From: Terebella lapidaria
Lineage: Eukaryota; Annelida; Polychaeta; Terebellida; Terebellidae
Length of the DNA: 64,000 bases
Reading direction: 5' to 3'
Assembly (NCBI GenBank): GCA_949152475.1
Contig: OX424561.1
Span: 7,936,001-8,000,000 of the forward strand
The notes beneath the pieces were generated by a model. The model ran no database searches and had not been told where the DNA came from. It worked only from the letters and a program-made list of their open reading frames with translations. Shown here piece after piece: positions 27,012 through 63,807 of this stretch (the stretch's first letter is position 1; the number at the start of each line of letters is the position of its first letter). Both the position numbers and the translations under genes were made by a program.

Positions 27012-27206
27012 TCAAGAGTTTCTCGACTCTGAGCCGAATGTCATGGTGCTCAGAGATTTGTTGGTGTTCCTGAATGCGGCGAAGAGTCGGCATGCTGGAG
27101 CACGAGCGGAGAAATGACTGTCCATATTTGCAGCAAAAGGTTTAGGATTTGTGTCAAATTCCCAAGGTCTGAAGAATGGACAGGATATTCGGTTTGCTGT
27201 TGCCAT
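27012..27206 (-). pseudogene. Array copy 0: truncated N-terminal fragment
   Basis: Keeps MATANRISCPFFRPWEFDTN through SARAPA, then departs into unrelated sequence and stops at 27012. There is no homeodomain. The upstream side retains the normal long-type spacer (27290-28200). It is more diverged than other copies (P6R, Y17F, K20N), as expected at an array edge. Confidence 0.85.
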
Positions 27207-27290
27207 GTTGCTGCTGAATATGTTCACAATTCTGGAGTGAAGGAATGTTTTTTCAAGGAAGTATGCTTGGCATATAACTGATGGAAACTG

Positions 27291-28209
27291 ATATGCATTT
27301 CATTTATACACCAATTGACAGTGACATGAGCTGTTCTCAGTGTCATACATTTATATTGATGAACTTCATCCAGTCAATTGACAAGTAAGTGAATCGAATG
27401 ATGATAAGTGCAATTACAGAGTGTCAATGTCAGTTCTTTGAGTTTCAAATCAAGACTTTTGCTCTCAAAGAGAGTACTTTGAAGTTTGATTGATCTCTGA
27501 TGAAAGGCAGTTAATGGGATCAAAAGAAGAAATCAAAGATTAGCAAATATTAGATGAAAGGTGATCTACATAATCAAAGTGAATAATGTTCCCTATTGCT
27601 TTGAAAATAAACAACACAACTTTGCAGGATCAACGTGAATGACAAGTCAGATGACTTGATTTTCCTGCATAATACTTATGCTGAGAGCCATTAACATTAG
27701 TTTTGCCATTTGTCAATGGCACTTTAGCATGTAAATGTAATATTGACACCTGCTCACATAGGTGTATAGGATGTTCAGATTGAACAAGAAAGAGAAAGTT
27801 ATACACATTTTGCATTCAGTGTTAATGATGTTTCCAAGCACACAAATAACGACATTGCAATTTCACCAAGACGCTCACCAATTGTAAGAAATAATGATTA
27901 TGAATAATGAAAACTGTACTATAACTAGTATATACGAAGTAGTTGATGGATATTTTGTATTGTCAGATTTATATAGGGCATTGTTATTTGATGAGTGCAT
28001 GTCAATGTCATGTAAAGAATCTATAATGTATGTTTCAAGATTTTGCTATCATTGAAATCATTTTTTTATGCCAACCGCAAATCTAAGATATAAATTGTTT
28101 GGAATAAAACAAAACTCGACCAACCATTTACAGCCAAAAAACTATAGCAGGGTCATCAGTTGCAGACAGTGTGTGAAATAAGTATGTTTCAGTTGTGCAT
28201 TCAATGTAA
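27291..28209. other. Representative long-type spacer of the array
   Basis: The sequence between the promoter of one unit and the 3' end of the next. It recurs in all long units and contains an open 61-codon minus-strand stretch (27630-27815 and equivalents, MQNVYNFLFLVQSEHP...). I treat that as non-coding because it sits outside the TATA-to-poly(A) interval and changes reflect drift of the whole spacer. Confidence 0.5.
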
Positions 28210-28330
28210 TGGGCAAACAGCTGAAGTGCAACAATGCAACAAAAGGAAGAGGAACTAGATTTTGTGTATTTTATTTGAACATGAGCAAAATTGTTATAAC
28301 ATTAGTAACAATCATGAAAATAACAGGTCA

Positions 28331-28903
28331 CTACACTGGTGATAATGCTGGTGTTGGCACTAGAAATGGAGACAATTGTCTTAAGAAGTTCAATGCCCAA
28401 GCTGGATGAAGTGGTTGTTGGTTGATCTTGGATGGAGTAGAAGAATACGGATGGTGCCTGTGTAATGAACGAGGGGAGAAACGATGCTCTTTCTGTATCC
28501 TCTGTAGACGCTTTGGATGTATTGTTCCATTAAGTGTCAGAGTGTTGTTGGAACGAACACGTTTGTTTGCCATCCATTTCTTGACCTGACTGACTGTAAT
28601 GCCTCCGTGTTTGACAATATTTTGGACTGCAGCATCACTGGGATAAGGATGGTCAAAATTGTCCTTGTACCACATCTCCATCATTTCGACAGCTTTGGGG
28701 TTTAGGTATCGCTTAGTTGTTGCTTTCGTTGATGGAGACAATTTGGTCATATTGTCTGAGTCATATCCACTGTCTTGAGAATTGTTTGATGCTGGAGCAC
28801 GAGCGGAGAAATGACTGTCCATATTTGCAGCAAAAATTTTAGCTTTTGTGTCATATTCCCAAGGTCTGAAGAATGGACAGGATATTGGGTTTGCTGTTGC
28901 CAT
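28331..28903 (-). CDS. TALE homeobox gene, array copy 1 (L type, reference copy)
   Basis: Predicted DNA-binding transcription factor, 190 residues, single exon. I start at ATG 28903 because its context (AACATGGC) is strong and it lies about 97 nt after a TATA box; an upstream in-frame ATG at 29047 precedes the TATA box. Residues 11-18 are FFRPWEYD, containing FRPW. The homeodomain is about residues 60-122: PYP loop insertion at 86-88 and recognition helix GITVSQVKKWMANKRVR, with W110, N113 and R115 equivalent to homeodomain positions 48, 51 and 53. Position 49 is Met instead of Phe. A basic, His/Pro-rich tail ends LRQLSPFLVPTPALSPV. AATAAA is at 28275-28270, about 56 nt past the stop. Helix 3 resembles PBX, but the whole domain best matches what I recall of spiralian TALE (SPILE) proteins. 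Confidence 0.9.
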   Translation of the reverse strand: MATANPISCPFFRPWEYDTKAKIFAANMDSHFSARAPASNNSQDSGYDSDNMTKLSPSTKATTKRYLNPKAVEMMEMWYKDNFDHPYPSDAAVQNIVKHGGITVSQVKKWMANKRVRSNNTLTLNGTIHPKRLQRIQKEHRFSPRSLHRHHPYSSTPSKINQQPLHPAWALNFLRQLSPFLVPTPALSPV

Positions 28904-28993
28904 GTTGCTGCTGAATATATTCACAATTCTGGAGTGAAGGAATGTTTTTTCAAGGAAGTATGCTGGGCATATAACTGATGGAAACTGATATGC

Positions 28994-30009: not shown

Positions 30010-30582
30010 CTACACTGGTGATAATGCTGGTGTTGGCACTAGAAATGGAGACAATTGTCTTAAGAAGTTCAATGCCCAAGCTGGATGAAGTGGTTGTTGG
30101 TTGATCTTGGATGGAGTAGAAGAATACGGATGGTGCCTGTGTAATGAACGAGGGGAGAAACGATGCTCTTTCTGTATCCTCTGTAGACGCTTTGGATGTA
30201 TTGTTCCATTAAGTGTCAGAGTGTTGTTGGAACGAACACGTTTGTTTGCCATCCATTTCTTTACCTGACTGACTGTAATCCCTCCATGTTTGACAATATT
30301 TTGGACTGCAGCATCACTGGGATAAGGATGGTCAAAATTGTCCATGTACCACATCTCCATCATTTCGACAGCTTTGGGGTTTAGGTATCGCTTAGTTGTT
30401 GCTTTCGTTGATGGAGACAATTTGGTCATATTGTCGGAGTCATATCCACTGTCTTGAGAATTGTTTGATGCTGGAGCACGAGCGGAGAAATGACTGTCCA
30501 TATTTGCAGCAAAAATTTTAGCTTTTGTGTCATATTCCCAAGGTCTGAAGAATGGACAGGATATTGGGTTTGCTGTTGCCAT
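30010..30582 (-). CDS. TALE homeobox gene, array copy 2 (L type)
   Basis: 190 residues; identical to copy 1 apart from K80M before the PYP loop (WYMDNFD) and a few silent changes. Same C-terminus (LRQLSPF...). The plus-strand sequence just past the stop carries the AAAAGAAGTTTAACTAG variant of the 3' UTR, also seen in copies 10, 13, 14, 16, 17 and 19. It has a complete long-type promoter. Confidence 0.9.
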   Translation of the reverse strand: MATANPISCPFFRPWEYDTKAKIFAANMDSHFSARAPASNNSQDSGYDSDNMTKLSPSTKATTKRYLNPKAVEMMEMWYMDNFDHPYPSDAAVQNIVKHGGITVSQVKKWMANKRVRSNNTLTLNGTIHPKRLQRIQKEHRFSPRSLHRHHPYSSTPSKINQQPLHPAWALNFLRQLSPFLVPTPALSPV

Positions 30583-31684: not shown

Positions 31685-32257
31685 CTACACTGGTGATAAT
31701 GCTGGTGTTGGCACTAGAAATGGAGACAATTGTCTTAAGAAGTTCAATGCCCAAGTTGGATGAAGTGGTTGTTGGTTGATCTTGGATGGAGTAGAAGAAT
31801 ATGGATGGTGCCTGTGTAATGAACGAGGGGAGAAACGATGCTCTTTCTGTATCCTCTGTAGACGCTTTGGATGTATTGTTCCATTAAGTGTCAGAGTGTT
31901 GCTGGAACGAACACGTTTGTTTGCCATCCATTTCTTGACCTGACTGACTGTAATGCCTCCGTGTTTGACAATATTTTGGACTGCAGCATCACTGGGATAA
32001 GGATGGTCAAAATTGTCCTTGTACCACATCTCCATCATTTCGACAGCTTTGGGGTTTAGGTATCGCTTAGTTGTTGCTTTCGTTGATGGAGACAATTTGG
32101 TCATATTGTCTGAGTCATATCCACTGTCTTGAGAATTGTTTGATGCTGGAGCACGAGCGGAGAAATGACTGTCCATATTTGCAGCAAAAATTTTAGCTTT
32201 TGTGTCATATTCCCAAGGTCTGAAGAATGGACAGGATATTGGGTTTGCTGTTGCCAT
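31685..32257 (-). CDS. TALE homeobox gene, array copy 3 (L type)
   Basis: 190 residues. Carries K80, plus N119S immediately after the recognition helix (VRSSNT) and A169T near the tail (HPTWALNF). Otherwise like copy 1 over the whole 1.68 kb unit, so copies 1 and 3 are probably recent duplicates or have been converted. Confidence 0.9.
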   Translation of the reverse strand: MATANPISCPFFRPWEYDTKAKIFAANMDSHFSARAPASNNSQDSGYDSDNMTKLSPSTKATTKRYLNPKAVEMMEMWYKDNFDHPYPSDAAVQNIVKHGGITVSQVKKWMANKRVRSSNTLTLNGTIHPKRLQRIQKEHRFSPRSLHRHHPYSSTPSKINQQPLHPTWALNFLRQLSPFLVPTPALSPV

Positions 32258-33362: not shown

Positions 33363-33935
33363 CTACACTGGTGATAATGCTGGTGTTGGCACTAGAAATG
33401 GAGACAATTGTCTTAAGAAGTTCAATGCCCAAGCTGGATGAAGTGGTTGTTGGTTGATCTTGGATGGAGTAGAAGAATACGGATGGTGCCTGTGTAATGA
33501 ACGAGGGGAGAAACGATGCTCTTTCTGTATCCTCTGTAGACGCTTTGGATGTATTGTTCCATTAAGTGTCAGAGTGTTGTTGGAACGAACACGTTTGTTT
33601 GCCATCCATTTCTTGACCTGACTGACTGTAATGCCTCCGTGTTTGACAATATTTTGGACTGCAGCATCACTGGGATAAGGATGGTCAAAATTGTCCATGT
33701 GCCACATCTCCATCATTTCGACAGCTTTGGGGTTTAGGTATCGCTTAGTTGTTGCTTTCGTTGATGGAGACAATTTGGTCATATTGTCGGAGTCATATCC
33801 ACTGTCTTGAGAATTGTTTGATGCTGGAGCACGAGCGGAGAAATGACTGTCCATATTTCCAGCAAAAATTTTAGCTTTTGTGTCATATTCCCAAGGTCTG
33901 AAGAATGGACAGGATATTGGGTTTGCTGTTGCCAT
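33363..33935 (-). CDS. TALE homeobox gene, array copy 4 (L type)
   Basis: 190 residues. Two changes stand out: A27G (KIFAGNMDS) in the linker and Y79H (EMWHMDN) at homeodomain position 20, an aromatic core position in helix 1. The second could weaken folding. Promoter and 3' end are as in copy 1. Confidence 0.88.
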   Translation of the reverse strand: MATANPISCPFFRPWEYDTKAKIFAGNMDSHFSARAPASNNSQDSGYDSDNMTKLSPSTKATTKRYLNPKAVEMMEMWHMDNFDHPYPSDAAVQNIVKHGGITVSQVKKWMANKRVRSNNTLTLNGTIHPKRLQRIQKEHRFSPRSLHRHHPYSSTPSKINQQPLHPAWALNFLRQLSPFLVPTPALSPV

Positions 33936-35040: not shown

Positions 35041-35613
35041 CTACACTGGTGATAATGCTGGTGTTGGCACTAGAAATGGAGACAATTGTCTTAAGAAGTT
35101 CAATGCCCAAGCTGGATGAAGTGGTTGTTGGTTGATCTTGGATGGAGTAGAAGAATACGGATGGTGCCTGTGTAATGAACGAGGGGAGAAACGATGCTCT
35201 TTCTGTATCCTCTGTAGACGCTTTGGAAGTATTGTTCCATTAAGTGTCAGAGTGTTGTTGGAACGAACACGTTTGTTTGCCATCCATTTCTTTACCTGAC
35301 TGACTGTAATCCCTCCATGTTTGACAATATTTTGGACTGCAGCATCACTGGGATAAGGATGGTCAAAATTGTCCATGTACCACATCTCCATCATTTCGAC
35401 AGCTTTGGGGTTTAGGTATCGCTTAGTTGTTGCTTTCGTTGATGGAGACAATTTGGTCATATTGTCGGAGTCATATCCACTGTCTTGAGAATTGTTTGAT
35501 GCTGGAGCACGAGCGGAGAAATGACTGTCCATATTTGCAGCAAAAATTTTAGCTTTTGTGTCATATTCCCAAGGTCTGAAGAATGGACAGGATATTGGGT
35601 TTGCTGTTGCCAT
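35041..35613 (-). CDS. TALE homeobox gene, array copy 5 (L type)
   Basis: 190 residues, M80 variant as in copy 2, with H129L just after the homeodomain (NGTILPKRL). It is the last member of the run of five evenly spaced long units; below the array's left part every unit has its own promoter. Confidence 0.9.
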   Translation of the reverse strand: MATANPISCPFFRPWEYDTKAKIFAANMDSHFSARAPASNNSQDSGYDSDNMTKLSPSTKATTKRYLNPKAVEMMEMWYMDNFDHPYPSDAAVQNIVKHGGITVSQVKKWMANKRVRSNNTLTLNGTILPKRLQRIQKEHRFSPRSLHRHHPYSSTPSKINQQPLHPAWALNFLRQLSPFLVPTPALSPV

Positions 35614-35731: not shown

Positions 35732-36742
35732 CATGAGCAGTTCTCAGTGTCATACATTTATATTGATGAACTTCATCCAGTCAATTGACAAGTGAGTGAA
35801 TCGAATGATGACAAGTGCAATTACAGAGTGTCAATGTCAGTTGTTCTTTGAGTTTCAAATCAAGACTTTTGCTCTCAAAGAGAGTACTTTGAAGTTTGAT
35901 TGATCTCTGATGAAAGGCAGTTAATGGGATCAAAAGAAGAAATCAAAGATTAGCAAATTTTAGATGAAAGGTGATCTACATAATCAAAGTGAATAATGTT
36001 CCCTATTGCTTTGAAAATAAACAACTCAACTTTGCAGGATCAACGTGAATGACAAGTCAGATGACTTGATTTGCCTGCATAATACTTATGCTGAGAGCCA
36101 TTAACATTAGTTTTGTCGTTTGTCAATGGCACTTTAGCATGTAAATGTAATATTGACACCTGCTCACATAGGTGTATAGGATGTTCAGATTGAACAAGAA
36201 AGAGAAAGTTATACACATTTTGCATTCAGTGTTAATGATGTTTCCAAGCACACAAATAACGACATTGCAATTTCACCAAGACGCTCACCAATTGTAAGAA
36301 ATAATGATTATGAATAATGAAAACTGTACTATCACTAGTATTTACCAAGTAGTTGATGGATATTTTGTATTGTCAGATTTATATAGGGCATTGTTATTTG
36401 ATGAGTGCATGTCAATGTCATGTAAAGAATCTATAATGTATGTTTCAAGATTTTGCTATCATTGAAATCATTTTTTTATGCCAACCGCAAATCTAAGATA
36501 TAAATTGTTTGGATTAAAACAAAACTCGACCAACCATTTACAGCCAAAAAACTATAGCAGGGTCATCAGTTGCAGACAGTGTGTGAAATAAGTATGTTTC
36601 AGTTGTGCATTCAATGTAATGGGCAAACAGCTGAAGTGCAACAATGCAACAAAAGGAAGAGGAACTAGATTTTGTGTATTTTATTTGAACATGAGCAAAA
36701 TTGTTATAACATTAGTAACAATCATGAAAATAACAGGTCACT

Positions 36743-37315
36743 TCACTGGTGATAATGCTGGTGTTGGCAATAGAAATGGAGACAATTGTTGGCTAAGAAG
36801 TTCAATGCCCAAGCTGGATGAAGTGGTTGTTGGTTGATCTTGGATGGAGTAGAAGAATACGGATGGTGCCTGTGTAATGAACGAGGGGAGAAACGATGCT
36901 CTTTCTGTATCCTCTGTAGACGCTTTGGATGTATTGTTCCATTAAATGTCAGAGGGTTGTTGGAACGAACACGTTTGTTTGCCATCCATTTCTTGACCTG
37001 ACTGACTGTAATCCCTCCGTGTTTGACAATATTTTGGACTGCAGCATCACTGGGATAAGGATGGTCAAAATTGTCCATGTATCACATCTCCCTCATTTCG
37101 ACAGCTTTGGGGTTTAGGCATCGCTTAGTTGTTGCTTTCGTTGATGGAGACAATTTGGTCATATTGTCGGAGTCATATCCACTGTCTTGAGAATTGTTTG
37201 ATGCTGGAGCTCGAGCGGAGAAATGACTGTCCATATTTGTAGCAAAAGTTTCAGCTTTTGTGTCATATTCCCAAGGTCTGAAGAATGGACAGGATATTGG
37301 GTTTGTTGTTGCCAT
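36743..37315 (-). pseudogene. Array copy 6 (S type), nonsense in homeodomain helix 1
   Basis: A TGA at 37081-37079 replaces the conserved Trp codon of the MEMW motif (W78), cutting the protein before the PYP loop. Other changes: AETFATN, KRCLNP, EMREM and RSNNPLTF. The tail frame also differs: loss of the usual stop extends LANNCLHF by YCQHQHYHQ. The ATG lies 335 bp behind the stop of copy 7, with no TATAAA box between. Confidence 0.9.
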
Positions 37316-37650
37316 GTTGCTGCTGAATACATTCACAATTCTGGAGTGAAGGAATGTTTTTTCAAGGAAGTATGCTTGGCATATATTGTTTGGATTAAAA
37401 CAAAACTCGACCAACCATTTACAGCCAAAAAACTATAGCAGGGTCATCAGTTGCAGACAGTGTGTGAAATAAGTATGTTTCAGTTGTGCATTCAATGTAA
37501 TGGGCAAACAGCTGAACTGCAACAATACAACAAAAAGAAGTTTAACTAGTTTTTGTGTATTTTATTTGAACATGAGCAAAATTGTTATAACATTAGTAAC
37601 AATCATGAAAATAACAGGTCACTACACTGGTGATAATGCTGGTGTTGGCA

Positions 37651-38196
37651 CTAGAAATGGAGACAATTGTTGGCTAAGAAGTTCAATGCCCAAACTGGAT
37701 GAAGTGGTTGTTGGTTGATCTTGGATGGAGTAGAAGAATACGGATGGTGCCTGTGTAATGAACGAGGGGAGAAACGATGCTCTTTCTGTATCCTCTGTAG
37801 ACGCTTTGGATGTATTGTTCCATTAAATGTCAGAGTGTTGTTGGAACGAACACGTTTGTTTGCCATCCATTTCTTGACCTGACTGACTGTAATCCCTCCA
37901 TGTTTGACAATATTTTGGACTGCAGCATCACTGGGATAAGGATGGTCAAAATTGTCCATGTACGACATCTCCATCATTTCGACAGCTTTGGGGTTTAGGT
38001 ATCGCTTAGTTGTTGCTTTCGTTGATGGAGACAATTTGGTCATATTGTCGGAGTCATATCCACTGTCGTGAGAATTGTTTGATGCTGGAGCACGAGCGGA
38101 GAAATGACTGTCCATATTTGCAGCAAAAGTTTTAGCTTTTGTGTCATATTCCCAAGGTCTGAAGAATGGACAGGTTATTGGGTTTGTTGTTGCCAT
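37651..38196 (-). CDS. TALE homeobox gene, array copy 7 (S type)
   Basis: 181 residues from ATG 38196 (MATTNPITCPFF), ending LANNCLHF. Distinctive features are S7T, Q43H (NNSHDSG) and W78S (MEMSYMDN, homeodomain position 19). Copy 8 shares all of these, so the two 881-bp units are near-identical recent duplicates. A reading frame can be extended upstream to 38295, but only from a TTG codon, so I use the ATG. Promoter region deleted. Confidence 0.85.
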   Translation of the reverse strand: MATTNPITCPFFRPWEYDTKAKTFAANMDSHFSARAPASNNSHDSGYDSDNMTKLSPSTKATTKRYLNPKAVEMMEMSYMDNFDHPYPSDAAVQNIVKHGGITVSQVKKWMANKRVRSNNTLTFNGTIHPKRLQRIQKEHRFSPRSLHRHHPYSSTPSKINQQPLHPVWALNFLANNCLHF

Positions 38197-38531
38197 GTTG
38201 CTGCTGAATACATTTACAATTCTGGTGTGAAGGAATGTTTTTTCAAGGAAGTATGCTTGGCATATATTGTTTGGATTAAAACAAAACTCGACCAACCATT
38301 TACAGCCAAAAAACTATAGCAGGGTCATCAGTTGCAGACAGTGTGTGAAATAAGTATGTTTCAGTTGTGCATTCAATGTAATGGGCAAACAGCTGAAGTG
38401 CAACACTGCAACAAAAGGAAGAGGAGCTAGACTTTGTGTATTTTATTTGAACATGAGCAAAATTGTTATAACATTAGTAACAATCATGAAAATAACAGGT
38501 CACTACACTGGTGATAATGCTGGTGTTGGCA

Positions 38532-39077
38532 CTAGAAATGGAGACAATTGTTGGCTAAGAAGTTCAATGCCCAAGCTGGATGAAGTGGTTGTTGGTTGAT
38601 CTTGGATGGAGTAGAAGAATACGGATGGTGCCTGTGTAATGAAGGAGGGGAGAAACGATGCTCTTTCTGTATCCTCTGTAGACGCTTTGGATGTATTGTT
38701 CCATTAAATGTCAGAGTGTTGTTGGAACGAACACGTTTGTTTGCCATCCATTTCTTGACCTGACTGACTGTAATCCCTCCATGTTTGACAATATTTTGGA
38801 CTGCAGCATCACTGGGATAAGGATGGTCAAAATTGTCCATGTACGACATCTCCATCATTTCGACAGCTTTGGGGTTTAGGTATCGCTTAGTTGTTGCTTT
38901 CGTTGATGGAGACAATTTGGTCATATTGTCGGAGTCATATCCACTGTCGTGAGAATTGTTTGATGCTGGAGCACGAGCGGAGAAATGACTGTCCATATTT
39001 GCAGCAAAAGTTTTAGCTTTTGTGTCATATTCCCAAGGTCTGAAGAATGGACAGGTTATTGGGTTTGTTGTTGCCAT
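38532..39077 (-). CDS. TALE homeobox gene, array copy 8 (S type)
   Basis: 181 residues; as copy 7, including W78S, plus R145P in the tail (RFSPPSLHRH), which it shares with copy 9. It is the middle of a four-copy promoter-less run. The 335-bp interval to the next stop codon contains that gene's AATAAA signal. Confidence 0.85.
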   Translation of the reverse strand: MATTNPITCPFFRPWEYDTKAKTFAANMDSHFSARAPASNNSHDSGYDSDNMTKLSPSTKATTKRYLNPKAVEMMEMSYMDNFDHPYPSDAAVQNIVKHGGITVSQVKKWMANKRVRSNNTLTFNGTIHPKRLQRIQKEHRFSPPSLHRHHPYSSTPSKINQQPLHPAWALNFLANNCLHF

Positions 39078-39412
39078 GTTGCTGCTGAATACATTTACAA
39101 TTCTGGTGTGAAGGAATGTTTTTTCAAGGAAGTATGCTTGGCATATATTGTTTGGATTAAAACAAAACTCGACCAACCATTTACAGCCAAAAAACTATAG
39201 CAGGGTCATCAGTTGCAGACAGTGTGTGAAATAAGTATGTTTCAGTTGTGCATTCAATGTAATGGGCAAACAGCTGAAGTGCAACACTGCAACAAAAGGA
39301 AGAGGAGCTAGACTTTGTGTATTTTATTTGAACATGAGCAAAATTGTTATAACATTAGTAACAATCATGAAAATAACAGGTCACTACACTGGTGATAATG
39401 CTGGTGTTGGCA

Positions 39413-44738: not shown

Positions 44739-44836
44739 ACCTCTCGGTGGAGACTCCGATGCACATTACAATGCCCACTTCATATCTGTCCTATACATGT
44801 AAAGTGACACTTTGATGCATATGTTATTGTCGCAGG

Positions 44837-50667: not shown

Positions 50668-51343
50668 GATAGTATTGCAAGCGAGTTTCGATACTTTATT
50701 TTCACAAAAATCATTTTTACTTCGATTATGTGTATACTGGTGTCATATGCATACTTAATAAGGTAAGGCATTGCTATATTGATTTAGAGATTGTTTGATA
50801 TATATATGTATATGCATCGGAGATATTATGTGTATTATGATGAATTCTACATGATAATATAATATATAGTGTACATGTAAGATGATTGATTAATATGCAC
50901 CCAACACGTGCGCCGTAATATACATAAATGCTATATAACTCATTCTTGACAAATGCCCATGTTTTCTATCACCAATTATGATGATGGATTGTCGTACTAT
51001 CTAACAACTCGATCACAAAATGTATGGTGAATGACTGAATGATAAAATGAGCTAAACTTTATATGATAGCCCTGATTCTATCGTGAATGTACAAAGAAAC
51101 AACAATTATATCAACATACCAATTGAGTGGAATTCTTGTGTCATTACTCGTCACATTGAATCATGTCATTTTCATTTGTTTCTTTTATTCTGTTCGTTTA
51201 TGGCTGTATCTACACTGGGACAAATGCCTGTCGGTGCGGTGTGTGTGAACAACATGATACAGGAATTTTGATGCGGCTAACAAAAAATATGTCATGGATG
51301 ATTAAACTTGGGCATGAAATAAATAAAATCTGCGTCTGTACAA

Positions 51344-54300
51344 TTGCATCTTTGCTCATACAATTTGAAGATGGAAAATGATGCACGTGACTCGAGTTCT
51401 GATGAAGATTTCCCAGGTTCATCCGATTGTGTGGAAGATTATCGACTGTCGATCTTGAATATCGATAACCAATACTGTGATCTAAGTGAGATAAATGGGA
51501 ATTTGATGTCTTTCCCTAGCGCAAAATACTGTGCCATCCATATAAATATTCAAAGTCTGCCTTCCAAACATATAGAGTTATGTGATATGATAGCACAATT
51601 GAGAGAAAATGGAGTGGTCGTGCACTTTATCATGCTCTGCGAGACATTCCTGACTGATATAAATGCGAGTATGTTTCCCATCACCGGATATAATTTTGTT
51701 CATGTTAGTAGGTCTGTCCTCAAGAGGGGAGGAGTTGCAATCTATTTACTCAATGAATTCAATTACAGAGTGAGACACGATCTTTCTATTAATATTGAGG
51801 GAGAATTCGAGAGCTTGACTCTAGAAATAGATTCTAAACACGGTAAACCAAACCTCATTATTTCTGAAATATACCGTGTACCAAACACTAACGAACGGAC
51901 TTCAGTCGAACGTTATGACCAGATGGTCACTGCAATATGCAATACTAATAATGACGTATTGGTTGGCACCGACCAAAACTTCGACTATATGAAAGTTAAC
52001 ATGCATCAAAACTCGTCTGATCTGTTGAATGTCTTTTTTCAAGCAGGTGTGCTCCCAACAATAAAGCGACCGACCCGGGTTACGCATACAAGTGCAACAG
52101 TTATTGATAATTTGTACATCAAATGCCATGGATATAAGAATGTGGACTCGCGTATTATATTATCACATATGTCGGACCATTTCCCTATCATAGCTTGCAT
52201 GGGCAAACGGCAAACGCCTACTGATAAAGGCCCCCTGATGTTTACCCACAGGCCTTTCAATCCGGCAAATATCGCTAATTTATCAAACGCTCTGAGCGCT
52301 CAACCTTGGGGAGAAACAATGTTTAACAAAGGGGTGAGTGAAAGTTATAATTATTTTATTACACACTTCAACAGACTTTTAGACAAGAACATCCCCTTCA
52401 AAACAACTTCCATACCATATAATTCCATTATAAGGGAACCATGGATGACACCAGGTCTTATGAAAGCATCTCGAAAACGCGATATATTATATAGAAAATC
52501 TCTTTCGAAGGCGAAAACTAGTAATGTTTATGTAAAATATATTAAATATCGAAATGCCTATGGAACCATTGGACGCAATGCGAAAAAAATATATTACACT
52601 GAACTCTTAGAACAATACCAAACGGATATACGCAAGACGTGGAAAGTTTTGAATACAATAACTGGGAGGGCCCAGGCCAAGCCCACCATACCAGACAGTT
52701 TTGACCTAGACGGCGAGAAGATATCTGATACGACCAAAATTGCTAACGAGTTTTGCACATATTTTAGCAGCATCGGCAAGACATTTGCAGAAGCGATACC
52801 AAAATCGACCAAATCACCTGAGCAGTATATGCGCATGTCCGCCACGAAATCGACAATGTTTCTTTCACCAACATATCCTGACGAAATTTATAAAATTATC
52901 AAATCATTTAAAACTAAAAAAAGCTCAGGTGATGATGGCATCAGTATGCATCTACTCAGGCAATTGGGTGAGTCTTGCTGTGTTCCCATATCTATAATTG
53001 TTAACAAGTCGCTGGAGGAAGGCATAGTCCCCGATGCTATGAAACTAGCAAAGGTTATACCTATTTACAAAGCAAAAGCAAAAGACTCTTTCAACAATTA
53101 TAGACCCATTTCTCTGTTATCTAACATATCAAAAGTAATTGAGAAAGTGGTACACAATAGGCTTTATTCATTTCTGACGAAGTTCGATATATTAAACGAT
53201 CACCAATATGGGTTCAGACCCAAGCGCTCTACAATTGATGCAATCACTGAATTTACCTCGAATGTCCTGCCTTCACTGGACGAAAAGGGCAGGTGCTTAT
53301 CTGTGTTCCTGGACCTCTCCAAGGCGTTTGATACCATAAACCATAACATATTACTGAAGAAACTTGAATATTATGGTATACGAGGGAACGCCTTGGGGTG
53401 GTTCAGGAGTTACCTTGACCAGAGAAGGCAGTATGTCTCTTTCCGAGGAGTCAATTCGAATATACAAAACGTAGAATATGGTGTGCCTCAGGGATCGGTG
53501 CTAGGCCCGCTACTCTTCATATTATATACAAATGATATTCCAGATTCTCTAAGCCACTCTAAAACTGTTTTATTTGCTGACGACACGACTGTATACCTTA
53601 CTGGTGAAAACTTACAGAGTATGTATACATCAATAAACTCCGATCTAACTGTTCTAAATGACTGGTTCATGGCCAATCAACTGTCTGTCAACCCGACAAA
53701 GACAAAATACGTCCTTTTCTCAACACGTGGAAACTATAATACTATCTCACACGAATTATATATTAACAATGAAAAACTAGAAAGGGTCGAATCAACTAAA
53801 TTTTTGGGCGTCATTATAGACCAAAATCTCAATTGGCAGCAACACATAGAACATTGCCGGAAAAAAATATCGAAAGGAATATATGCCATCAACATATCGA
53901 AACACATACTGTCCCAAAACCACTTGAAAATATTATATTTTAGTTTGATACATCCTTATCTACTGTATGGAATTAGACTCTGGGGTAATACCTATCATAA
54001 ATATATTAATAAACTTGAAATTTTGCAAAAAAAGGCTATTCGGGCCATATGCGGGGCTAAATAAAATGACCCTACATCGTCACTTTTCAAAAACTTGAGG
54101 ATAACTAAAATCAGGGACATGTACAAATTAAATACATCTCTCTTTATGTATGACTTTGTCAACATAATGCTACCAAGTCCCTTATTACAAATATTCAGCC
54201 TTCATGGAAGTACACACACCCATGATACTAGGCATAGCACCGATCCCAAACCACCAATTGCGAATACCGATGTCATGAAACGTAGCTACCTATATACGGG

Positions 54301-54400
54301 CCCATCTGATTGGATGAACCTGGACAAAAACATCAAAACTTCGAGATCAAAAACGATTTTTAAGAAAAAAATGATGCGGAATTTTATTTCTAAATACTGA
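51344..54400 (+). pseudogene. Retrotransposon ORF2: APE endonuclease and reverse transcriptase, one nonsense codon
   Basis: The endonuclease spans about residues 60-290 (HINIQSLPSKHIEL, LCETFLTD, GGVAIYLL, SHMSDHFPI). The RT follows: FNNYRPISLLSNISKVIEK, QYGFRPKRSTIDA, VFLDLSKAFDTINH, YGVPQGSVLGPLLFILY and catalytic FADDTTVYLT (near 53571-53600). The frame meets a TAA at 54062-54064 after AICGAK, then continues in the same frame to 54400 with typical family sequence (LFKNLRITKIRDMY...). This is a single nonsense change near the C-terminus, so I call it a recently disabled copy. A plausible start is ATG 51344 or 51371. Confidence 0.9.
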
Positions 54401-54665
54401 ACATTATGACAACATGCTAGGTTATACGTATCGATACCATATATGTGTGTGTTATGATTGCATGTGTCAAATACTGATTTTAAATATCTAATCGAATATG
54501 ATTAAACCCAAAAAAGGCGAAATATTCCAGTGTGGATTCAACCATTTAAGGTGATCACCTCCCCGCTCTGCGAGGTTACAGACACTGTCTTGCTGATCAC
54601 CTGGGATATGTATATATATATGTAATGTAATGTATTCCTTTCTGTTCAGCATATCCCGAATAAAA

Positions 54666-54685
54666 ATATCTATCTATCTATCTAT
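54666..54685. repeat. (ATCT)n tail of the retrotransposon
   Basis: Four to five tetranucleotide units immediately before homeobox copy 12 resumes; marks the 3' insertion border. Confidence 0.85.
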
Positions 54686-55237
54686 ATTGTCCATGTACCA
54701 CATCTCCATCATTTCGACAGCTTTGGGGTTTAGGTATCGCTTAGTTGTTGCTTTCGTTGATGGAGACAATTTGGTCATATTGTCGGAGTCATATCCACTG
54801 TCTTGAGAATTGTTTGATGCTGCAGGTCGAGCGGAGAAATGACTGTCCATATTTGCAGCAAAAGTTTGAGCTTTTGTGTCATATTCCCAAGGTCTGAAGA
54901 ATGGACAGGATATTGGGTTTGTTGTTGCCATGTTGCTGCTGAATACATTCACAATTCTGGAGTGAAGGAATGTTTTTTCAAGGAAGTATGCTTGGCATAT
55001 ATTGTTTGGAATAAAACAAAACTCGACCAACCATTTACAGCCAAAAAACTATAGCAGGGTCATCAGTTGCAGACAGTGTGTGAAATAAGTATGTTTCAGT
55101 TGTGCATTCAATGTAATGGGCAAACAGCTGAAGTGCAACAATACAACAAAAAGAAGTTTAACTAGTTTTTGTGTATTTTATTTGAACATGAGCAAAATTG
55201 TTATAACATTAGTAACAATCATGAAAATAACAGGTCA

Positions 55238-55813
55238 CTACACTGGTGATAATGCTGGTGTTGGCACTAGAAATGGAGACAATTGTTGGCTTAAGAAGTT
55301 CAATGCCCAAGCTGGATGAAGTGGTTGTTGGTTGATCTTGGATGGAGTAGAAGAATACGGATGGTGCCTGTGTAATGAACGAGGGGAGAAACGATGCTCT
55401 TTCTGTATCCTCTGTAGACGCTTTGGATGTATTGTTCCATTAAATGTCAGAGTGTTGTTGGAACGAACACGTTTGTTTGCCATCCATTTCTTGACCTGAC
55501 TGACTGTAATCCCTCCGTGTTTGACAATATTTTGGACTGCAGCATCACTGGGATAAGGATGGTTAAAATTGTCCATGTACCACATCTCCATCATTTCGAC
55601 AGCTTTGGGGTTTAGGTATCGCTTAGTTGTTGCTTTCGTTGATGGAGACAATTTGGTCATATTGTCGGAGTCATATCCACTGTCTTGAGAATTGTTTGAT
55701 GCTGGAGCTCGAGCGGAGAAATGACTGTCCATATTTGCAGCAAAAGTTTGAGCTTTTGTGTCATATTCCCAAGGTCTGAAGAATGGACAGGATATTGGGT
55801 TTGTTGTTGCCAT
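55238..55813 (-). CDS. TALE homeobox gene, array copy 13 (S type)
   Basis: 191 residues; MATTNP start, AQTF in place of AKTF, D84N (NFNHPYP), tail LSQQLSPFLVPTPALSPV. No full promoter; 306 bp behind the stop of copy 14. Combines an S-type N-terminus with the longer tail otherwise frequent in L copies. Confidence 0.88.
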   Translation of the reverse strand: MATTNPISCPFFRPWEYDTKAQTFAANMDSHFSARAPASNNSQDSGYDSDNMTKLSPSTKATTKRYLNPKAVEMMEMWYMDNFNHPYPSDAAVQNIVKHGGITVSQVKKWMANKRVRSNNTLTFNGTIHPKRLQRIQKEHRFSPRSLHRHHPYSSTPSKINQQPLHPAWALNFLSQQLSPFLVPTPALSPV

Positions 55814-56119: not shown

Positions 56120-56695
56120 CTACACTGGTGATAATGCTGGTGTTGGCACTAGAAATGGAGACAATTGTTGGCCTAAGAAGTTCAATGCCCAAGCTGGATG
56201 AAGTGGTTGTGGGTTGATCTTGGATGGAGTAGAAGAATACGGATGGTGCCTGTGTAATGAACGAGGGGAGAAACGATGCTCTTTCTGTATCCTCTGTAGA
56301 CGCTTTGGATGTATTGTTCCATTAAATGTCAGAGTGTTGTTGGAACGAACACGTTTGTTTGCCATCCATTTCTTGACCTGACTGACTGTAATCCCTCCAT
56401 GTTTGACAATATTTTGGACTGCAGCATCACTGGGATAAGGATGGTCAAAATTGTCCATGTACCACGTCTCCATCATTTCGACAGCTTTAGGGTTTAGGTA
56501 TCGCTTTGTTGTTGCTTTCGTTGATGGAGACAATTTGGTCATATTGTCGGAGTCATATCCACTGTCTTGAGAATTGTTTGATGCTGGAGCACGAGCGGAG
56601 AAATGACTGTCCATATTTGCAGCAAAAGTTTTAGCTTTTGTGTCATATTCCCAAGGTCTGAAGAATGGGCAGGATATTGGGTTTGCTGTTGCCAT
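56120..56695 (-). CDS. TALE homeobox gene, array copy 14 (L type)
   Basis: 191 residues; M77T as in copy 10, Q162P (INPQPL) and tail LGQQLSPF. The close resemblance to copy 10, including the changed CGTCTCC codons and spacer variants, suggests a segmental duplication of a larger block (copies 9-11 versus 13-15). Confidence 0.9.
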   Translation of the reverse strand: MATANPISCPFFRPWEYDTKAKTFAANMDSHFSARAPASNNSQDSGYDSDNMTKLSPSTKATTKRYLNPKAVEMMETWYMDNFDHPYPSDAAVQNIVKHGGITVSQVKKWMANKRVRSNNTLTFNGTIHPKRLQRIQKEHRFSPRSLHRHHPYSSTPSKINPQPLHPAWALNFLGQQLSPFLVPTPALSPV

Positions 56696-56811: not shown

Positions 56812-57851
56812 GACATGAGCAGTTCTCAGTGTCATACATTTATATTGATGAACTTCATCCAGTCAATTGACAAGTGAGTGAATCGAATGATGACAAGTGC
56901 AATTACAGAGTGTCAATGTCAGTTGTTCTTTGAGTTTCGAATCAAGACTTTTGCTCTCAAAGAGAGTATTTTGAAGTTTGATTGATCTCTGATGAAAGAC
57001 AGTTAACGGGATCAAAAGAAGAAATCAAAGATTAGCAAATTTTAGATGAAAGGTGATCTACATAATCAAAGTGAATAATGTTCCCTATTGCTTTGAAAAT
57101 AAACAACACAACTTTGCAGGATCAACGTCAATGACAAGTCAGATGACTTGATTTGCCTGCATAATACTTATGCTGAGAGCCATTAACATTAGTTTTGTTT
57201 TTTGTCAATGGCACTTTACCATGTAAATGTAATTTTGACACCTGCTCACATAGGTGTATAGGATGTTCAGATTCAACAAGAAAGAGCAAGTTATACACAT
57301 TTTGCATTCAGTGTTAATGATGTTTCCAAGCACACAAATAACGACATTGGAATTTCACCAAGACGCTCACCAATTGTAAGAAATAATGATTATGAATAAT
57401 GAAAACTGTACTATAACTAGTATTTACAAAGTAGTTGATGGATATTTTGTATTGTCAGATTGATATAGGGCATTGTTATTTGACGAGTGCATGTCAATGT
57501 CATGTAAAGAATCTATAATGTATGTTTCAAGATTTTGCTATCATTGAAATCATTTTTTTATGCCAACCGCAAATCTAAGATATAAATTGTTTGGAATAAA
57601 ACAAAACTCGACCAACCATTTACAGTCAAAAAACTATAGCAGGGTCATCAGTTGCAGACAGTGTGTGAAATAAGTATGTTTCAGTTGTGCATTCAATGTA
57701 ATGGGCAAACAGCTGAAGTGCAACAATGCAACAAAAGGAAGAGGAACTAGATTTTGTGTATTTTATTTGAACATGAGCAAAATTGTTATAACATTAGTAA
57801 CAATCATGAAAATAGCAGGTCACTACACTGGTGATAATGCTGGTGTTGGCA

Positions 57852-58397
57852 CTAGAAATGGAGACAATTGTTGGCTAAGAAGTTCAATGTCCAAGCTGGA
57901 TGAAGTGGTTGTTGGTTGATCTTGGATGGAGTAGAAGAATACGGATGGTGCCTGTGTAATGAAAGAGGGGAGAAACGATGCTCTTTCTGTATCCTCTGTA
58001 GACGCTTTGGATGTATTGTTCCATTAAATGTCAGAGTGTTGTTGGAACGAACACGTTTGTTTGCCATCCATTTCTTGACCTGACTGACTGTAATCCCTCC
58101 ATGTTTGACAATATTTTGGACTGCAGCATCACTGGGATAAGGATGGTCAAAATTGTCCATGTACCACATCTCCATCATTTCGACAGCTTTGGGGTTTAGG
58201 TATCGCTTAGTTGTTGCTTTCGTTGATGGAGACAATTTGGTCATATTGTCGGAGTCATATCCACTGTCTTGAGAATTGTTTGATGCTGGAGCACGAGCGG
58301 AGAAATGACTGTCCATATTTGCAGCAAAAGTTTTAGCTTTTGTGTCATATTCCCAAGGTCTGAAGAATGGACAGGATATTGGGTTTGCTGTTGCCAT
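57852..58397 (-). CDS. TALE homeobox gene, array copy 15 (L type)
   Basis: 181 residues; MATANP start with the short tail LANNCLHF, R145L (RFSPLSL) and A171T. Shows that tail type and promoter type can be shuffled. Full promoter and about 1.1 kb spacer upstream. Confidence 0.9.
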   Translation of the reverse strand: MATANPISCPFFRPWEYDTKAKTFAANMDSHFSARAPASNNSQDSGYDSDNMTKLSPSTKATTKRYLNPKAVEMMEMWYMDNFDHPYPSDAAVQNIVKHGGITVSQVKKWMANKRVRSNNTLTFNGTIHPKRLQRIQKEHRFSPLSLHRHHPYSSTPSKINQQPLHPAWTLNFLANNCLHF

Positions 58398-58493
58398 GTT
58401 GCTGCTGAATATATTCACAATTCTGGAGTGAAGGAATGTTTTTTCAAGGAAGTATGCTTGGCATATAACTGATGGAAACTGATATGCATTCCA

Positions 58494-58515
58494 TTTATAT
58501 ACCAATTGACAGTGA
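58494..58515 (-). promoter_or_regulatory. TATA/CCAAT promoter of copy 15
   Basis: Same motif pair, about 97 nt before ATG 58397. Confidence 0.72.
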
Positions 58516-59524: not shown

Positions 59525-60100
59525 CTACACTGGTGATAATGCTGGTGTTGGCACTAGAAATGGGGACAATTTTTGGCTCAAGAAGTTCAATGCCCAAACT
59601 GGATGAAGTGGTTGTTGGTTGATCTTGGATGGAGTAGAAGAATACGGATGGTGCCTGTGTAATGAACGAGGGGAGAAACGATGCTCTTTCTGTATCCTCT
59701 GTAGACGCTTTGGATGTATTGTTCCATTAAATGTCAGAGTGTTGTTGGAACGAACACGTTTGTTTGCCATCCATTTCTTGACCTGACTGACTGTAATCCC
59801 TTTATGTTTGACAATATTTTGGACTGCAGCATCACTGGGATAAGGATGGTTAAAATTGTCCATGTACCACATCTCCATCATTTCAACAGCTTTGGGGTTT
59901 AGGCATCGCTTAGTTGTTGCTTTCGTTGATGGAGACAATTTGGTCATATTGTCGGAGTCATATCCACTGTCTTGAGAATTGTTTGATGCTGGAGCTCGAG
60001 CGGAGAAATGCCTGTCCATATTTGCAGCAAAAGTTTGAGCTTTTGTGTCATATTCCCAAGGTCTGAAGAATGGACAGGATATTGGGTTTGTTGTTGCCAT
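59525..60100 (-). CDS. TALE homeobox gene, array copy 16 (S type)
   Basis: 191 residues; S30R (NMDRHFS), Y66C, D84N, and G100K at the turn before helix 3 (IVKHKGITV), tail LSQKLSPF. 306 bp behind copy 17's stop. The charge change beside helix 3 is the most radical homeodomain substitution among copies that stay open. Confidence 0.87.
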   Translation of the reverse strand: MATTNPISCPFFRPWEYDTKAQTFAANMDRHFSARAPASNNSQDSGYDSDNMTKLSPSTKATTKRCLNPKAVEMMEMWYMDNFNHPYPSDAAVQNIVKHKGITVSQVKKWMANKRVRSNNTLTFNGTIHPKRLQRIQKEHRFSPRSLHRHHPYSSTPSKINQQPLHPVWALNFLSQKLSPFLVPTPALSPV

Positions 60101-60406: not shown

Positions 60407-60982
60407 CTACACTGGTGATAATGCTGGTGTTGGCACTAGAAATGGAGACAATTGTTGGCTTAAGAAGTTCAATGCCCAAGCTGGATGAAGTGGTTGTTGG
60501 TTGATCTTGGATGGAGTAGAAGAATACGGATGGTGCCTGTGTAATGAACGAGGGGAGAAACGATGCTCTTTCTGTATCCTCTGTAGACGCTTTCGATGTA
60601 TTGTTCCATTAAATGTCAGAGTGTTGTTGGAATGAACACGTTTGTTTGCCATCCATTTCTTGACCTGACTGACTGTAATCCCTCCATGTTTGACAATATT
60701 TTGGACTGCAGCATCACTGGGATAAGGATGGTCAAAATTGTCCATGTACCACATCTCCATCATTTCGACAGCTTTGGGGTTTAGGTATCGCTTAGTTGTT
60801 GCTTTCGTTGATGGAGACAATTTGGTCATATTGTCGGAGTCATATCCACTGTCTTGAGAATTGTTTGATGCTGGAGCACGAGCGGAGAAATGACTGTCCA
60901 TATTTGCAGCAAAAATTTTAGCTTTTGTGTCATATTCCCAAGGTCTGAAGAATGGACAGGATATTGGGTTTGCTGTTGCCAT
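60407..60982 (-). CDS. TALE homeobox gene, array copy 17 (L type)
   Basis: 191 residues; R117H in NKRVHSN (homeodomain position 55, usually a basic DNA contact) and P130R (TIHRKRL). Tail LSQQLSPF. Full promoter; heads the pair 17-16. Confidence 0.88.
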   Translation of the reverse strand: MATANPISCPFFRPWEYDTKAKIFAANMDSHFSARAPASNNSQDSGYDSDNMTKLSPSTKATTKRYLNPKAVEMMEMWYMDNFDHPYPSDAAVQNIVKHGGITVSQVKKWMANKRVHSNNTLTFNGTIHRKRLQRIQKEHRFSPRSLHRHHPYSSTPSKINQQPLHPAWALNFLSQQLSPFLVPTPALSPV

Positions 60983-61078: not shown

Positions 61079-61100
61079 TTTATATACCAATTGACAGTGA
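61079..61100 (-). promoter_or_regulatory. TATA/CCAAT promoter of copy 17
   Basis: Same motif pair, about 97 nt before ATG 60982. Confidence 0.72.
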
Positions 61101-62088
61101 CATGAGCAGTTCTCAGTGTCATACATTTATATTGATGAACTTCATCCAGTCAATTGACAAGTGAGTGAATCGAATGATGACAAGTGCAATTACAGAGTGT
61201 CAATGTCAGTTGTTCTTTGAGTTTCAAATCAAGACTTTTGCTCTCAAAGAGAGTACTTTGAAGTTTGATTGATCTCTGATGAAAGGCAGTTAATGGGATC
61301 AAAAGAAGAAATCAAAGATTAGCAAATTTTAGATGAAAGGTGATCTACATAATCAAAGTGAATAATGTTCCCTATTGCTTTGAAAATAAACAACACAACT
61401 TTGCAGGATCAACGTCAATGACAAGTCAGATGACTTGATTTGCCTGCATAATACTTATGCTGAGAGCCATTAACATTAGTTTTGTTTTTTGTCAATGGCA
61501 CTTTACCATGTAAATGTAATATTGACACCTGCTCACATAGGTGTATAGGATGTTCAGATTCAACAAGAAAGAGAAAGTTATACACATTTTGCATTCAGTG
61601 TTAATGATGTTTCCAAGCACACAAATAACGACATTGCAATTTCACCAAGACGCTCACCAATTGTAAGAAATAATGATTATGAATAATGAAAACTGTACTA
61701 TAACTAGCATTTACCAAGTAGTTGATGGATATTTTGTATTGTCAGATTTATATAGGGCATTGTTATTTGATGAGTGCATGTCAATGTCATGTAAAGAATC
61801 TCTAATGTATGTTTCAATATTTTGCTATCATTGAAATCATTTTTTATGCCAACCGCAAATCTAAGATATAAATTGTTTGGATTAAAACTAAACTCGACCA
61901 ACCATTTGCAGCCAAAAAACTATAGCAGGGTCATCAGTTGCAGACAGTGTGTGAAATAAGTATGTTTCAGTTGTGCATTCAATGTAATGGGCAAACAGCT
62001 GAAGTGCAACAATGCAACAAAGGAAGAGGAACTAGATTTTGTTTATTTTATTTGAACATGAGCAAAATTGTTATAACATTAGTAACAA

Positions 62089-62777
62089 TCATGAAAATAA
62101 CAGGTCACTACACTGGTGATAATGCTGGTGTTGGCAATAGAAATGGAGACAATTGTTGGCTAAGAAGTTCAATGCCCAAGCTGGATGAAGTGGTTGTCGG
62201 TTGATCTTGGATGGAGTAGAAGAATACGGATGGTGCCTGTGTAATGAACGAGGGGAGAAACGATGCTCTTTCTGTATCCTCTGTAGACGCTTTGGATGTA
62301 TTGTTCCATTAAATGTCAGAGTGTTGTTGGAACGAACACGTTTGTTTGCCATCCATTTCTTGACCTGACTGACTGTAATGCCTCCGTGTTTGACAATATT
62401 TTGGACTGCAGCATCACTGGGATAAGGATGGTTAAAATTGTCCATGTACCACATCTCCATCATTTCGACAGCTTTGGGGTTTAGGCATCGCTTAGTTGTT
62501 GCTTTCGTTGATGGAGACAATTTGGTCATATTGTCGGAGTCATATCCACTGTCGAGGGGAGGGGAGAAACGATGCTCTTTCTGTATCCTCTGTAGACGCT
62601 TTGGATGTATTGTTCCATTAAATGTCAGAGTGTTGTTGGAACGAACACGAACGAATTGTTTGATGCTGGAGCTCGAGCGGAGAAATGACTGTCCATATTT
62701 GCAGCAAAAGTTTGAGCTTTTGTGTCATATTCCCAAGGTCTGAAGAATGGACAGGATATTGGGTTTGTTGTTGCCAT
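62089..62777 (-). pseudogene. Array copy 18 (S type), broken by a templated insertion
   Basis: From ATG 62777 the frame reads MATTNPISCPFF... to ASNNS, then runs into about 95 bp (62552-62650) that duplicate the gene's own 3' coding region (compare 62250-62340) and stops. The homeodomain itself (62529-62089) is still open but cannot be reached in frame. The tail has the YCQHQHYHQ extension, as in copy 6. Confidence 0.9.
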
Positions 62778-63084
62778 GTTGCTGCTGAATACATTCATAA
62801 TTCTGGAGTGAAGGAATGTTTTTTTCAAGGAAGTATGCTTGGCATATATTGTTTGGATTAAAACAAAACTCGACCAACCATTTACAGCCAAAAAACTATA
62901 GCAGGGTCATCAGTTGCAGACAGTGTGTGAAATAAGTATGTTTCAGTTGTGCATTCAATGTAATGGGCAAACAGCTGAACTGCAACAATACAACAAAAAG
63001 AAGTTTAACTAGTTTTTGTGTATTTTATTTGAACATGAGCAAAATTGTTATAACATTAGTAACAATCATGAAAATAACAGGTCA

Positions 63085-63669
63085 CTACACTGGTGATAAT
63101 GCTGGTGTTGGCACTAGAAATGGGGACAATTGTTGGCTCAAGAAGTTCAATGCCCAAGCTGGATGAAGTGGTTGTTGGTTGATCTTGGATGGAGTAAAAG
63201 AATACGGATGGTGCCTGTGTAATGAACGAGGGGAGAAACGATGCTCTTTCTGTATCCTCTGTAGACGCTTTGGATGTATTGTTCCATTAAGTGTCAGAGG
63301 GTTGTTGGAACGAACACGTTTGTTTGCCATCCATTTCTTGACCTGACTGACTGTAATCCCTCCATGTTTGACAATATTTTGGACTGCAGCATCACTGGGA
63401 TAAGGATGGTCAAAATTGTCCATGTACCACATCTCCATCATTTCGACAGCTTTGGGGTTTAGGCATCGCTTAGTTGTTGCTTTCGTTGATGGAGACAATT
63501 TGGTCATATTGTCGGAGTCATATCCACTGTCTTGAGAATTGCTTGATGCTGGAGCACGAGCGGAGAAATGACTGTCCATATTTGCAGCAAAAATTTTAGC
63601 TTTTGTGTCATATTCCCAAGGTCTGAAGAATGGACAGGATATTGGGTTTGCTGTTGCTGCTGAATACAT
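63085..63669 (-). CDS. TALE homeobox gene, array copy 19 (array edge, altered start)
   Basis: 194 residues from ATG 63669 (MYSAATANPISCPFF). An 8-bp deletion removed the usual Kozak ATG, but the shift brings an upstream ATG into frame, so FRPW and the homeodomain remain readable. Other changes: N41S, Y66C, RSNNPLTL, S155F (PYSFTPSK). Upstream only a fragment of S-type flank and spacer remains (63738-63807) and no TATA/CCAAT pair is visible, so expression is doubtful. Confidence 0.82.
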   Translation of the reverse strand: MYSAATANPISCPFFRPWEYDTKAKIFAANMDSHFSARAPASSNSQDSGYDSDNMTKLSPSTKATTKRCLNPKAVEMMEMWYMDNFDHPYPSDAAVQNIVKHGGITVSQVKKWMANKRVRSNNPLTLNGTIHPKRLQRIQKEHRFSPRSLHRHHPYSFTPSKINQQPLHPAWALNFLSQQLSPFLVPTPALSPV

Positions 63670-63807
63670 TCACAATTCTGGAGTGAAGGAATGTTTTTTC
63701 AAGGAAGTATGCTTGGCATATATTGTTTGGATTAAAATGCTCACATAGGTGTATAGGATGTTCAGATTCAACAAGAAAGAGAAAGTTATACACATTTTGC
63801 ATTCAGT

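Follow-up and report, generated by a model that had tools for sequence, protein, structure and literature searches.

The described homeobox systems closest to the locus reported here are the SPILE genes, which are presented as spiralian-specific TALE genes acting in quartet specification of the limpet, the spiralian-specific TALE genes of molluscs being expressed in cleavage (PMC8524836). Nearly identical SPILE A/C homeodomains are reported there, eight in Lottia gigantea and seven on one scaffold in the chiton Acanthopleura granulata (PMC8524836). The A/C clade is described as carrying a PADRE domain, some 87-90 residues long, ahead of the homeodomain (PMC5322547, PMC8524836); two homeodomains are the architecture given for SPILE-B, and the SPILE E clade is characterized as lacking PADRE and as a single gene in the molluscs examined (PMC8524836). 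In the annelid Owenia, over ten unclassified TALE homeoboxes are reported as upregulated at 3 hours post-fertilization, the genes thus being expressed in cleavage (PMC12550047). Here we analyze a window of 64,000 nucleotides (C7:7,936,001-8,000,000 of a 761.6-Mb assembly), which contains the left end of a tandem array of an intronless TALE homeobox gene, the window gene. Like the SPILE A/C genes of Lottia and Acanthopleura, it is a spiralian-specific TALE gene whose nearly identical copies lie in tandem or on the same scaffold and go back to lineage-specific duplication. Unlike them, it has 105 full-length copies rather than seven or eight, belongs to an annelid, has no PADRE-sized region, is unassigned to a subclade, and mixes promoter-bearing with promoterless units.

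Outside the TALE class the nearest parallel is DUX4, a PRD-class double homeobox gene. The D4Z4 macrosatellite that carries it is described as having 11 to >100 units, with transcripts that start from the distal-most unit and need the poly(A) signal of a permissive haplotype (PMC8350899, PMC5849414). The window array resembles it in its high copy number and in the homeobox open reading frame of each head-to-tail unit; unlike D4Z4, it has an AATAAA in nearly every unit. The window gene is of the TALE class and unrelated to the double homeobox gene. The ETCHbox arrays, reported at 66 Obox loci in mouse and 27 LEUTX copies in rabbit, 14 of them putatively functional (PMC8208926), are likewise lineage-specific homeobox arrays with many pseudogenes and gene conversion (embryonic expression is a feature of Obox and LEUTX), but are of the PRD class, mammalian, and smaller in copy number. 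No published report of a TALE array of the present size was seen among the papers listed in searches that covered no preprints and few subscription papers.

Results

The array occupies C7:7,963,092-8,157,770 (195 kb), about five times the length visible in the window. Its 105 full-length copies and some additional fragments all lie on the minus strand, and the array unit covers 166,115 bases of this locus. These limits come from the window and the next 180 kb (244 kb read), in the remainder of which no unit sequence was found. An ATG start is present in 97 of the 105 copies, and 82 combine it with an open homeodomain; 53 have a frame that is intact as far as the C terminus, with one extra residue in three of them. 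A protein search of the genome, in which 150 of 334 candidates were scored, found no close copies elsewhere. A mobile element as the repeat unit was considered and rejected: within the window the unit is confined to the array, and among the 150 of 334 candidates scored in the protein search, close copies occur solely at the C7 locus.

A complete gene copy is an intronless frame of 190 or 191 residues, from an ATG (context AACATGG) to the stop. A TATA box and an initiator (Inr) at a suitable spacing define a TATA-Inr core promoter. Ahead of the window gene, TATATAAA stands at -104 and TCAGTT at -75, which puts the Inr A 31 bp from the first T, a spacing that fits such a promoter; an example lies at 58467..58501 (minus strand), upstream of the ATG at 58397. 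Of 19 window copies examined, 9 have the putative TATA/Inr pair upstream and 10 have neither motif; in the full array, the exact pair precedes 56 of the 105 copies. On the other side of the gene, AATAAA starts 56 nucleotides past the aligned gene in 17/17 window copies and falls within 110 nucleotides after 102 of all 105. Frames of 238-239 residues that run upstream through the promoter are probably not coding. A short form of the unit is without an 821-bp stretch that holds the promoter, with a few bases shared at the junction. Because the promoter lies within this stretch, we infer a deletion in the short units rather than an insertion.

Decay is seen in the copies without the promoter pair. 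Over all 56 copies with the TATA/Inr pair the pairwise ratio of nonsynonymous to synonymous polymorphism (pN/pS) is 0.37, versus 0.85 over all 49 copies without it. Divided by intactness, it is 0.32 in the 41 intact copies with the pair, 0.56 in the 12 intact copies without, and 0.81 in the 52 copies that are not intact; the contrast over all copies is the fairer one, because picking intact copies lowers pN by construction. The exact pair stands before 41 of the 53 intact copies. Intact frames make up 41 of 56 copies with the pair as against 12 of 49 without (Fisher 7e-7; the copies are related), and none of 104 circular label shifts reached the observed overlap of promoter and intactness. Within the window, excluding two copies whose upstream regions differ, pN/pS is 0.36 for nine copies with the promoter and 1.00 for six without (permutation P 0.03). 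Among the 17 full-length window copies all four gametes occur at 214 of 741 site pairs, which by the Hudson-Kaplan count corresponds to at least 10 events, and in the window divergence is unrelated to how far apart two copies lie (r 0.002, P 0.46). These two observations point to crossing-over and conversion; over all 105 copies the relation of divergence to distance is weak (r 0.10).

The protein has a single homeodomain, preceded by 63 residues. The query copy matches the KN homeobox in Pfam (PF05920, 1.3e-12), with a sub-threshold match to the general homeodomain, and its best solved-structure matches are PBX1 and extradenticle. AlphaFold2 predicts three confident homeodomain helices (69-81, 90-100, and 104-120) and a helix after them, with a mean predicted local distance difference test score of 86-95 per block over residues 71-110 and low confidence for the rest. 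Three C-terminal versions co-exist and are shared among copies, two in-frame ones that differ by three bases and end in LSPV, and one with a one-base frameshift that ends in CLHF or CLNF; the protein tails thus vary within the array (copies 28331-63657). The LSPV form looks ancestral, because the relatives P0002 and P0004 end in LSPM.

The N terminus carries the motifs FRPW and DSGYDS. Neither is altered in any of the 53 intact copies, three of which are altered in the E that follows FRPW. DSGxxS is the degron of beta-TrCP. Among 94 relatives with at least 30 residues ahead of the homeodomain, [FVIM]RPWE occurs in 58 (mean 0 in 200 shuffles), DSG[YFIL]x[ST] in 32 (mean 0.075 in 200 shuffles), and RPWE and DSG together in 30. 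Groucho-recruiting repressors have a Groucho-binding motif of the FRPW/WRPW type. Huckebein is stated to need its FRPW in order to interact with Groucho (PMC6547707). Recruitment of Groucho via FRPW and degradation via a DSGxxS phosphodegron are our predictions for the window gene from these motifs.

Relatives of the gene numbered 44 in a search of 5.8 billion proteins and 108 in a search with an alignment of 30. From the 108 we set aside a Capitella protein and two proteins that contain a PBC domain. Helix 3 reads WMANKR in 97 of the remaining 105, and 82 also have the motif NTL...HP after the homeodomain; both are missing from the three proteins set aside. A tree of 115 rows and 57 columns puts the window gene in a clade of 83 rows (99/96, the bootstrap not having settled) that includes none of the eight classical rows. 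The eight named organisms of the clade (Paralvinella, Mytilus, Potamilus, Pinctada, Dimorphilus, Sinanodonta, Rotaria, and Adineta) all belong to the annelids, molluscs, or rotifers, and the remaining rows are nameless; by its named rows, it is a non-canonical TALE clade confined to Spiralia, as SPILE genes are defined. In a 31-row tree that includes the MKX, IRX, TGIF, and PBX loci of the same genome, the non-canonical rows split off at 97/90. Positions of the window gene within PBC, IRX, MKX, or TGIF were rejected on this tree by the approximately unbiased (AU) test (p 0.0147, 8.6e-4, 2.4e-8, and 8.9e-6, respectively), as was a position within MEIS/PKNOX on a 29-row tree (p 0.0055). Against the exclusion of all classical families, PBC is not rejected in two other trees (AU 0.328 with 115 rows and 0.0697 with 29 rows), a 57-column homeodomain alignment having little power.

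The first-pass annotation of this DNA had assigned the genes to the TALE class and, with less certainty, to the SPILE genes of spiralians. The TALE assignment is borne out by the PYP three-residue loop and helix 3 GITVSQVKKWMANKR, both of which are present, and by the KN-type homeodomain with its PF05920 match. The phylogeny proposed as a check puts the gene outside the classical TALE families, by the 97/90 split and the AU rejections, with PBC rejected in one of three trees. The SPILE assignment holds in part: the trees, the WMANKR helix, and the motif after the homeodomain place the gene in the non-canonical spiralian TALE group, but it is not assignable to a named SPILE clade, in trees that contain no published Nipponacmea, Lottia, or Crassostrea SPILE sequences. 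The spiralian host which the assignment implies agrees with the neighboring CDC16 gene, whose product is nearest that of the annelid Paralvinella. A PADRE-sized N-terminal region like that of SPILE A/C is absent, judged by the length of 63 residues alone, and so is a second homeodomain, the marker of SPILE B. With regard to SPILE E the observations point both ways, a PADRE-sized region being absent but the gene being multi-copy. Three bivalve TALE proteins (Mytilus P0033, Potamilus P0068, and Pinctada P0070) have two homeodomains, the first of which groups with the window gene against the sampled classical TALE families; unlike them, the window gene combines one homeodomain with an FRPWE/DSGYDS N terminus.

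A different non-canonical TALE gene forms a second array in the same genome, on the plus strand of contig C3 from 2,507,805 to at least 2,702,000. Its units measure 1788 bp, with shorter forms, and pieces aligned to one unit are 97.5-100% identical. The frame contains a KN homeobox (PF05920, 1.2e-10) and has 50% identity to the window gene over 54 residues; it resembles Sinanodonta P0100 beyond the homeodomain too (39% over 142 residues). There are at least 50 homeodomains, counted as 48 different places from genome searches (41 + 7) and two more from the sequence read. We read 32 kb of the C3 region, with 14 homeodomain frames in 20 kb of continuous sequence and 22 in all; 13 of the 22 have an in-frame start codon and encode seven distinct proteins. 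The array is putatively continuous between 2,516,121 and 2,578,193, where a single place is listed; the unit is absent at 2,720,001-2,722,000 and at 2,750,001-2,752,000. In 30 kb, TATAAAA stands at -72 before 17/17 starts and AATAAA 44 nucleotides past 20/20 stops. The C3 array repeats the unit design of the C7 array.

More distant relatives, from the same 150 scored candidates, include a place on C4. Two relatives in opposite orientations (C7:30,901,501-30,906,500) are 51-52% identical to the window gene and carry VRPWE and DSGYDSD motifs. A smaller cluster of four relatives in one orientation, 44-48% identical, lies at C15:12,118,572-12,133,288, and C16:9,454,454-9,455,086 holds a single open frame of 893 residues with two homeodomain matches.

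Within the window, BLAST with one gene (56120-56695) found, besides 17 full-length copies, a split copy, a rearranged copy, and an edge fragment. All are on the minus strand, and most are spaced by ~1675-1703 or 881-882 bp, which are the two unit lengths. The count agrees with the first-pass annotation, which had listed 19 copies and an edge fragment in one orientation. Its figure of 16 open homeodomains is right for the full-length copies, all but the one at 36741-37315 (stop at W78) being open; the rearranged copy is open as well, which makes 17. The array had also been called large, uniform, and recent. Its size was understated, as the window holds only the left end and the 105 full-length copies reach C7:8,157,770. 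It is not uniform, having two unit lengths, three C-terminal versions, and 11 kb of foreign DNA at 43500-54685, and the recency of its expansion cannot be dated, because recombination mixes the copies.

Ten of the 17 full-length window copies are intact to the C terminus, eight of them with the exact core promoter. From the left end, marked by the edge fragment found by BLAST (gene positions 1-115, 27092..27206), intact copies with the putative core promoter lie at 28331..28903, 30010..30582, 31685..32257, and 40265..40840, and the query copy, also of this kind, at 56120..56695. Three further copies are open to the C terminus and have the core promoter, with a substitution at a family-invariant site (one of 19 positions without variation in the alignment of 30 relatives): Y79H at 33363..33935, H129L at 35041..35613, and P130R at 60407..60982. 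The copy at 57823..58397 has the promoter and a frameshifted C terminus. No core promoter precedes the pseudogene copy at 36741..37315, with its stop at W78, T121P, and a frameshifted C terminus, or the short-upstream copies at 37622..38196 and 38503..39077 (both W78S with frameshifted C terminus), 39384..39958 (frameshifted C terminus), and 55238..55813 and 59525..60100 (reading frame intact). The copy at 41968..42542 has a rearranged upstream region, Y79H, and a frameshifted C terminus; that at 63085..63657 has T121P and an 8-bp deletion across the start codon, and the rearranged copy at 62108..62777 has an open homeodomain and a displaced N-terminal part. The split copy (3' half at 43168..43499, 5' half at 54686..54931) is broken by an 11,186-bp insertion on the plus strand (43500..54685), which contains an element like a long interspersed nuclear element (LINE). 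The junctions of the insertion overlap by 3 bp (ATT), and an ATCT repeat marks its right end. The final array-unit stretch in the window is at 63738..63807, all these array features being on the minus strand, and the array resumes past the window.

In the insertion, a frame at 43347-44738 looks by eye like an L1-type ORF1, and its C-terminal part matches the NADAR domain (PF08719, 9.6e-34). An ORF2 with reverse transcriptase lies at 51323-54400, and ~6.5 kb between the two are nearly devoid of long frames. For NADAR retrotransposons the literature gave only unrelated matches among the matches listed.

Downstream of the array, and on its strand, is a CDC16 gene with exon matches from ~24.5 to 14.1 kb of the window. 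Over the same 332 residues, the CDC16 product shares 81% identity with that of Paralvinella palmiformis and no more than 72.7% with any of 17 others compared, of 120 listed. Paralvinella is a member of Terebelliformia, and because the CDC16 of the host is nearest to it, we take the host to be an annelid near Terebelliformia. Between two CDC16 exon matches, on the minus strand at 15109-20469, is a retroelement, DIRS-like by eye, with a 1786-residue open frame and matches to reverse transcriptase (PF00078) and RNase H-like (PF17917) domains. One open reading frame in the right flank of the array had no match in PDB or Pfam.

Discussion

The explanation that we favor, and regard as fairly probable, is that the complete units are amplified, self-contained early zygotic genes which raise the dose of a short-lived repressor. 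In the short cell cycles of the early embryo, each complete unit would be transcribed on its own and all of them at the same time, so that copy number would raise the protein dose. Unequal crossing-over and conversion would maintain a core of some 40 working copies, and units without the 821-bp promoter stretch would be passengers. With less assurance, we suggest that the protein may bind DNA through its TALE homeodomain, recruit Groucho/TLE through FRPW, and be removed by way of the DSGxxS phosphodegron.

In favor of this explanation are the single orientation of the 105 copies, their promoter and poly(A) motifs, the lower pN/pS and the larger share of intact frames where the promoter pair is present, recombination between the copies, the motif counts among relatives, the like design of the C3 array, and the cleavage expression of spiralian-specific TALE genes in molluscs and of unclassified TALE genes in Owenia (PMC8524836, PMC12550047). 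Several observations weigh against it, and selection on dose itself is a supposition. Only 5 of the 17 full-length window copies combine the promoter, the full C terminus, and all 19 family-invariant residues, and pN/pS over all window copies is 0.69. The kinship of the copies makes the selection contrast weaker than its P-values. The 49 copies that lack the exact pair are heterogeneous, 20 having short-unit sequence at the TATA position and 6 having TATATAAG. Exact FRPW is found in only 27 of the 94 relatives (shuffle mean 0.005), most others having VRPW, IRPW, or MRPW, and a similar motif, FKPY of Znf703, is described as dispensable (PMC6547707). Finally, 52 of the 105 copies are not intact, as expected of a neutral array. 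Such an array would be a macrosatellite with a few functional genes, the rest having been spread by unequal crossing-over and the copy number bringing no benefit. Broken copies also recur in whole blocks (near the right end, for instance, the frame of eight copies stops at residue 120), which again suits neutrality; against it, pN/pS is low over all promoter-pair copies and over the intact ones among them (0.37 and 0.32), intact copies are scattered along the array, and two different TALE genes of one genome share the same design. On this evidence we think a neutral macrosatellite rather unlikely.

Genetic conflict could also account for two large arrays that differ in their TALE gene and contig and contain many broken copies, the C7 array being one party to an arms race (over meiotic drive or its suppression) and the C3 array perhaps the other. 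Related spiralian TALE genes are, however, reported as expressed in the early embryo (PMC8524836), and we consider conflict improbable. We put slightly less belief still in an assembly artefact, in which mis-assembly or duplicated haplotypes would have enlarged an array that is smaller in reality. Long repeats of near-identical sequence are difficult to assemble, the assembly was judged from its sequence, and some blocks of the C7 array recur with the same spacings. Yet 68 distinct proteins are encoded among the 97 copies with a start codon, the array contains private rearrangements and foreign insertions, and it is bounded on both sides by non-array sequence on a 44-Mb contig; moreover, P0001, from a 938-bp contig of a public record, is one residue away from at least five copies.

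Returning to amplified early zygotic genes, a wider proposal is possible, which we make tentatively and hold with less than even confidence. An annelid may have independently made two spiralian TALE genes into macrosatellites convergent with DUX4/D4Z4, in which the complete units would be self-contained intronless early zygotic genes. At zygotic genome activation, array length, and perhaps array chromatin, would then govern when blastomeres are specified and at what dose, and copy number would be a heritable developmental variable. Tandem SPILE duplicates were already known at seven to eight copies; the novelty lies in the scale, in the unit architecture, and in a design repeated within one genome.

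Homeobox genes of early cell fate are mostly present in one or few copies; here there are 105, about half of them intact, and at least 50 homeodomains of a second gene. The 105 copies outnumber those cited for mouse Obox (66), rabbit LEUTX (27), and tandem spiralian TALE genes (7-8), and have a parallel in human D4Z4/DUX4. If the genes are on in the cleaving embryo, they would be an extreme case of a master switch whose dose is boosted by copy number, and this annelid would make it testable whether gene amplification provides an effective dose in very short embryonic cell cycles.

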